A DNA stretch of 35,971 nt from Candidatus Peribacteraceae bacterium (GTDB lineage Bacteria; Patescibacteriota; Gracilibacteria; Peribacterales; Peribacteraceae). The notes beneath the pieces were generated by a model. It worked only from the letters and a program-made list of their open reading frames with translations. It was not told the DNA's origin and searched no databases. Of this stretch, positions 701-889 are shown piece by piece (the first letter of the stretch is position 1; the number at the start of each line of letters is the position of its first letter). Where the stretch lies: the NCBI GenBank assembly GCA_028711445.1, contig JAQTSD010000001.1:58596-94566 (forward strand), written 5' to 3'. Position numbers and translations under genes: made by a program.

Positions 701-726
701 AAAAAAGCCCTCGCGCTGCGAGGGTT
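701..726 (-). terminator. Rho-independent terminator with competing upstream copy of its 3' arm
   Basis: The minus strand has ACCCTCGC, a 3-nt loop, GCGAGGGC, then six T. Seven base pairs form a compact GC-rich stem directly before the T tract, a standard intrinsic terminator. The 3' arm sequence GCGAGGGC also occurs inside the small ORF upstream (764-771), so the 5' arm has two alternative partners. Confidence 0.8.
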
Positions 727-749
727 GGAGGCTGAAGTGAGAAAAACGT

Positions 750-854
750 TTACACGTGAGCCTGCCCTCGCACGGAGCGCATCATCATGCTCATCATCAC
801 CTGTCCTGAGCGAAGTCGAAGGGTGGCGCCGGCAGAGGGAGTCGGATGACTCAC
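750..854 (-). CDS. 34-aa Met-rich peptide, possible leader peptide
   Basis: A GTG start at 852-854 follows a TACACT box by 7 nt, the spacing seen at many other genes here. The 34-codon frame ends in TAA at 750-752, 23 nt before an intrinsic terminator. Residues 20-25 read MMSMMM (five ATG codons of six), followed at once by codons that contain a copy of the terminator's 3' arm. The size, the cluster of one amino acid and the alternative hairpins resemble attenuation leader peptides. Part of the frame (residues 11-18, TLRLRSGQ) is encoded by a dispersed repeat (see 801-822), which argues for caution. It could also be a chance ORF in a short non-coding RNA. Confidence 0.4.
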   Translation of the reverse strand: MSHPTPSAGATLRLRSGQVMMSMMMRSVRGQAHV

Positions 855-861
855 GGGCGAG

Positions 862-889
862 AGTGTAGGCCTGTTGTGGATCCTGTCAA
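862..889 (-). promoter_or_regulatory. Sigma70-type promoter for the small Met-rich ORF
   Basis: TTGACA (884-889) is separated by 16 bp from TACACT (862-867) on the minus strand. The predicted start of transcription is at or next to the GTG at 854, so the transcript would be leaderless. Confidence 0.65.

Follow-up and report, generated by a model that had tools for sequence, protein, structure and literature searches.

The unit that lies between the end of recG and a gene for a 72-aa protein is very probably a methionine-responsive, ribosome-mediated transcription attenuator. It was studied within a window of 35,971 nucleotides from a Candidatus Peribacteraceae genome and is located on the minus strand, where recG stops at 943 and the open reading frame for the 72-aa protein spans 676-458. 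The anatomy of the unit, its conservation and covariation, its constant geometry, the energetics of its hairpins and the link to methionine genes in relatives are all observations. The transcript start, ribosome stalling, read-through and methionine as the signal are only inferred, as there are no RNA or expression data. The main defining features of such an attenuator that sequence can show are present: a codon run for one amino acid, mutually exclusive hairpins (arms 2:3 or 3:4), an arm 2 placed suitably relative to the run and the stop codon and, in relatives, pathway genes downstream. The first-pass annotation of this DNA had read the locus as a trp/his-type attenuator acting on Met codons, and the conserved Met run and arms, the folding with a masking ribosome and the methionine genes downstream support that reading.

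All of the parts lie on the minus strand. A sigma-70-like promoter (862-889), seen in the sequence and in a promoter scan, consists of TTGACA (889-884), a 16-nt spacer and TACACT (867-862); both boxes and their spacing are kept in most relatives. A leader-peptide ORF of 34 codons (750-854) begins with GTG at 854, 7 nt past the -10 box, ends with TAA at 752-750 and encodes MSHPTPSAGATLRLRSGQVMMSMMMRSVRGQAHV*. Its Met run and stop position are conserved in about 60 units. The control codons, ATG ATG AGC ATG ATG ATG, occupy 780-797, and every unit has such a Met-rich stretch, with a median of six Met codons after the start. Promoter, start codon and Met-rich ORF were thus as first annotated, and so were two copies of GCGAGGGC, at 771-764 and 714-707, flanking one complement. 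That complement had been placed at 718-725. The shared arm does exist, but the true arm is CCCTCGC at 724-718, as base 725 is an A, leaving C764 without a partner there; U772 and A717 supply the eighth antiterminator pair. By folding, arm 2 (TGCGAGGG, 765-772) is the 5' arm of the antiterminator and covaries with arm 3. Arm 3 (CCCTCGCA, 717-724), supported by the terminator scan, covariation and folding, can pair with either arm 2 or arm 4. Folding also revealed an inner antiterminator stem that had been overlooked, formed by AGGCT (AGGCU in the RNA, 763-759) and AGCCT (AGCCU, 733-729). The intrinsic terminator (700-714), identified by the scan and by comparison with relatives, ends in arm 4 (GCGAGGG, 714-708) and a tract of seven T (706-700), not the six first counted. 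In the window RNA, with the inner stem included, the antiterminator hairpin reached -21.3 kcal/mol and the terminator -12.6 kcal/mol. The controlled gene (P0001, 458-676) starts 24 nt past the T tract, as had been annotated, and its same-genus orthologue is 79% identical. A second terminator-like hairpin, AGCACTTCC...GGAAGTGCTTTT at 411-444, closes the 72-aa gene, which therefore forms a single-gene unit; the same-genus genome G001 has the same hairpin.

In the proposed mechanism, RNA polymerase would start at or next to the GTG or ATG, and the leader peptide would be translated from a leaderless mRNA. With plentiful methionyl-tRNA, the ribosome would pass the Met run, reach the stop codon and cover arm 2, so that arms 3 and 4 would pair as the terminator and the transcript would end at about 150 nt. 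With scarce methionyl-tRNA, the ribosome would stall on the Met codons and leave arm 2, which begins some 7-8 nt past the run, free to pair with arm 3. This pairing, helped by the inner stem, would block the terminator and allow transcription of the downstream gene.

The switch was modeled by masking the RNA under a ribosome whose 3' edge lies 12 nt past the A site. In the window, the antiterminator had a probability of 0.85-1.0 with the A site on any Met codon except the last, and the terminator had a probability of 0.99 with the A site anywhere from the last Met codon through the stop. A stall on the very last Met codon therefore already yields the terminator, which counts against the switch. 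Over 60 masked units, the median terminator probability was 0.05 for the stalled ribosome and 0.96 for the ribosome at the stop codon. A full switch at equilibrium (terminator below 0.3 when stalled and above 0.7 at the stop) was found in only 38 of these units, and the exceptions include units where the terminator prevails regardless. Because RNA polymerase reaches arm 4 only after arms 2 and 3, we infer that the order of folding would favor the antiterminator. Without a ribosome, the terminator had a probability of 0.19 in the window, where the antiterminator is favored, and 0.83 in the median unit, where the terminator is favored. The ribosome-free prediction varies by unit and, thus, the default state is not uniform. 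The idea, drawn from the window, that failed initiation always leads to read-through was rejected because it fails over all units. A shortage of methionine also impairs initiation, which complicates any sensor of this amino acid.

The order of parts (promoter, start codon, Met run, arm 2, stop codon, arm 3, terminator) was constant, and so was much of the spacing. Sixty-one collected units made up the geometry sample, including one false positive (the second L085 match). Arm 2 mostly starts 7-8 nt past the last Met codon; the gap from arm 2 to the stop codon is mostly 11-13 nt, and that from the stop codon to the terminator stem is mostly 21-25 nt. Promoter matches scored 8 or higher in 49/61 units versus 7/61 shuffled ones. 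An in-frame ATG or GTG lies 6-9 nt past the -10 box in 40 of the 49 promoter-bearing units. This spacing suggests that the leader mRNA may be leaderless, which remains an inference because transcription starts have not been mapped.

The sequence of the arms and of the inner stem varies among units while their pairing is kept. In relatives, the arm GCGAGGG becomes GCGGGGG, CCCGCGGG, GCGAAGG or CGGGGGT, and the partners change in step. The inner stem occurs as AGGCU/AGCCU, GUUGG/CCAAC, CAGGU/ACCUG, GGUUC/GAACC and CCGGAU/AUCCGG. In an alignment of 43 sequences, arms 2 and 3 were paired in 96.9% of cells, nine of which were compensatory. None of 500 shuffles reached as high a covariation, which also lay above every slid control. 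This alignment leans towards 2:3 pairing because it was fitted to the 2:3 structure. In 59 of 61 units the antiterminator equalled or exceeded the terminator in stability, and the inner segment folded better than shuffles (mean z -1.5) despite its scarcely conserved sequence. Only 7/49 units have, upstream of the run, a complement to arm 2 of 6 nt or more, so a protector hairpin (region 1:2) does not appear, from the sequences, to be general among units.

The distribution of the unit was surveyed with covariance models. The first, R1, was built from eight units without use of the neighboring genes. Within the window's own family (Candidatus Peribacteria), about 35 of 74 genomes had a match at E<=0.001. 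The model also matched other families of the class, to a total of 56 of 353 genomes with the first family included, although not every match is a true unit. A wider model, R2, matched 26/380 genomes, the class included; few of these belong to other classes, and several matches are weak or have other codon runs. The host group of the units is Candidatus Peribacteria/Peregrinibacteria. A genome typically has one locus, frequently just after recG. The model match at L117 is doubtful, and the weak matches L122 and L180 were rejected since they do not have the layout. A loose pattern search with ATGATGNNNATGATG was dropped because it matched too many ordinary Met-rich genes. A pattern scan of genome contigs also gave matches in Mycobacterium, Rhodobacteraceae, Loktanella, Anaerobiospirillum and one Peregrinibacteria contig, which were rejected as chance matches with no terminator unit. 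One contig labeled Kiritimatiellales (L149, JAIPIN010000020.1) carries the unit of the Peribacteria genome L098 and is probably mislabeled or misbinned. Tandem units occur at five loci (L094, L099, L109, L113 and L115), where a second promoter was not seen. The second unit of some tandem pairs has CCCGCGG arms and a run rich in Met and Cys or in Met and Gly, such as MAMMCMCMR. It is possible that the tandem pairs act as a double gate.

Outside the window's clade, the recognizable genes downstream of the unit make, recycle or load methionine. Homocysteine S-methyltransferase (PF02574) was identified by Pfam behind the unit at L108, L164, L179 and L177 (E 4e-34, 1e-19, 4e-19 and 1e-31). Similar loci were recognized by reading (L165, L167, L170, L171, L181 and L195), and L209-L214 came from a search of the family. 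In the reverse test, 192 genomes of the class contained 16 genes for homocysteine methyltransferase, 7-8 of which had a Met-run leader and a terminator in front; two of the loci from this test (L214 and L216) are not among the model matches. MetA (homoserine O-succinyltransferase, PF04204) is the second gene at L177 and also occurs at L199, in another class (E 3e-123 and 6e-46). A PLP enzyme of the cystathionine-synthase type (MetB/MetZ-type, PF01053) is found at L172 (E 4e-102), and core MetE (PF01717) follows a methyltransferase at L130 (E 1e-20). A free methionine-(R)-sulfoxide reductase is encoded at L115 (PDB 3mmh, E 4e-32), and a GAF protein holds the same place at L129. MetG is within the operon at L175 and also at L174, where UGA was read as Gly. 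An NIL-domain protein accompanies a PLP enzyme at L182, where the unit is weaker. Downstream genes of unknown function were found at L096, L101, L104, L124 and L126.

SAM hydrolases liberate methionine from SAM, and genes for such enzymes stand behind the unit at L110 (PF01887/PF20257, E 3e-26) and L166. In Peribacteraceae, the unit is most often followed by a gene of a divergent family whose proteins have 300-370 aa (L105, L114, L107, L090, L097, L103, L109, L112 and others). Against Pfam, this family had at best marginal SAM_HAT_C matches, and the match of its profile to a SAM hydrolase in the PDB was insignificant (2zbu, 0.13). For its AlphaFold model (pLDDT 86.5), all 39 significant PDB matches were SAM hydrolases or SAM-dependent halogenases, the best at 5e-11. 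By this predicted model, the family has the SAM hydrolase/halogenase fold; its activity is inferred.

In some clades, including the window's genus and the hisS-linked one, the unit is followed by a small protein of 64-99 aa that often starts with MVNILPI. The window's own 72-aa protein had no match in Pfam or NCBIfam, its AlphaFold model was poor (pLDDT 68), and a Foldseek search against the PDB gave no significant match. A search of the same genome for a PF01887 (SAM_HAT) gene found none. Only the control element suggests that this 72-aa protein has a part in methionine metabolism, to which it has no known link.

In model matches from other groups of Patescibacteria, the same leader layout was also found with other codon runs. 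A KELKKTKK run precedes aspartokinase at L203, TTKTKT precedes aspartate-semialdehyde dehydrogenase (Asd) at L183, in a genome where UGA encodes Gly, and a short Phe-containing leader precedes pheS at L202. Ile-rich leaders lie before unknown genes at L196, L200 and L204. We are inclined to think, with some reservation, that Patescibacteria share a general form of amino acid control in which codon swaps adapt leaderless codon-run attenuators of one modular layout to Met, Lys, Thr/Lys, Phe or Ile, sometimes with tandem pairs as double gates. In these reduced genomes, the Met type would control how methionine is made and salvaged, SAM hydrolysis included.

Could an ordinary recG terminator, a chance ORF and a chance repeat of the arm account for the locus? 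From the window alone this cannot be dismissed: the promoter and terminator matches in its scan were at background level, and the whole leader folded in an ordinary way (z -0.41 versus shuffles). In the folding check proposed for the minus strand, the whole leader was no better than shuffles; with a masking ribosome, the predicted fold flipped between antiterminator and terminator. We count the unit as real because the same-genus genome G001 keeps it and many genera have it with changed arms. G001 retains the promoter, Met run, arms, stop codon and terminator, and other genera have units with identical layout and diverged sequence. The full layout, with its covarying arms, recurs in many genera, often at places other than recG. 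The absence of the Met run or of either arm copy in relatives had been named as grounds for refutation; both are kept, and the arms co-vary. Conservation has already refuted coincidence, to which we give practically no credence.

A different explanation is arrest by the nascent peptide in the style of TnaC or SecM, in which a Met-rich peptide would stall the ribosome on sensing SAM, methionine or another ligand instead of uncharged tRNA. The recurrence of the motif MMMxMMMR(S/P)xRG could be taken as a sign of such a peptide, but the number of Met residues, the flanks and the residue that separates the triplets (S, H, Q, A, P, D or N) all vary, and the RG is dictated by arm 2, giving way to PR or RR in units with a different arm. 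Furthermore, leaders of this layout with Lys, Thr/Lys and Phe runs are followed by genes that fit those amino acids, and therefore the sensing of tRNA charge is favored over a special Met peptide. We consider peptide arrest improbable. The alternative hairpins by themselves would also fit a leader RNA that binds a metabolite or protein, such as a riboswitch or T-box, that merely happens to contain the small ORF. No Rfam family matched at the site, though, and no T-box scored above cut-off in the class. SAM-I occurs in the class, and in this genome and two relatives it lies elsewhere, upstream of metK. What is conserved in the unit is the reading frame, the Met run and the distance to the stop codon, and a binding RNA is, in our judgment, very hard to sustain as the explanation. 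With SAM-I on metK and the Met leader elsewhere, SAM and methionyl-tRNA would be sensed separately if the unit is the attenuator we propose. The copy of SAM-I in this genome (L223, G000:C1:18325-18429) scored just under the Rfam cut-off (41.9 versus 44.4 bits).

Leader-peptide attenuation is a textbook mechanism, and methionine is usually controlled by SAM riboswitches, T-boxes or repressors. To our knowledge, methionine is not among the amino acids with a leader-peptide type. No methionine leader peptide was found in the open-access literature searched, which was limited to open-licence papers, so novelty is unproven; nor did that literature describe any leader-peptide attenuator in Patescibacteria. 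The units resemble the amino acid attenuators of trp, his, thr, leu, ilv, pheA and pheST in the codon run, the 2:3 and 3:4 hairpins, the intrinsic terminator and a stop codon placed for covering arm 2. They differ in using Met codons, in starts that look leaderless and in their hosts, Peribacteria and other Patescibacteria. A 2010 survey noted that leader-peptide systems were previously known only from Proteobacteria and Actinobacteria and added bacilli (PMC2965389). An actinobacterial survey placed methionine under S-box riboswitches and gave no attenuators for it (PMC1262725). The nearest leaderless precedent is that of the mycobacterial polycysteine leaderless short ORFs, which are reported to attenuate the downstream operon (Canestrari et al. 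2020, as cited in PMC9031893 and PMC9094748). They share the leaderless short ORF with a codon run as attenuator, but the amino acid is cysteine and the control is described as one of downstream translation (PMC9031893), whereas the Peribacteria units have an intrinsic terminator. SAM-I and T-box elements are likewise RNA controls of methionine or SAM genes, and T-boxes also sense tRNA charging; the Peribacteria unit has no aptamer or tRNA-binding structure, and the ribosome is the proposed sensor. A SAM-I leader of Xanthomonas was reported to sense uncharged initiator tRNA (PMC7270179). It too is a methionine operon leader answering tRNA charging, but through a riboswitch aptamer and without a translated codon run.

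These units represent recurrent control of genes for methionine synthesis and recycling, and their hosts are uncultured bacteria with small genomes, about whose regulation almost nothing is known. The divergent SAM-hydrolase-like family and the 72-aa family become candidates for methionine homeostasis. It remains a puzzle how a sensor functions when the amino acid that it measures is also needed for initiation.

Lastly, the leader ORF of the window contains a dispersed repeat, CACCCTTCGACTTCGCTCAGGACAG, as an in-frame insertion (800-826, minus strand) with no counterpart in the same-genus copy in G001. Allowing up to three mismatches, this repeat had 20 matches in its own genome versus seven for the reversed control. 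The leaders look as if they tolerate in-frame repeat insertions. A stretch resembling GGCACCTGTGGTGAG...CGAACC was seen at the equivalent place in the leaders of L088, L089 and L102.
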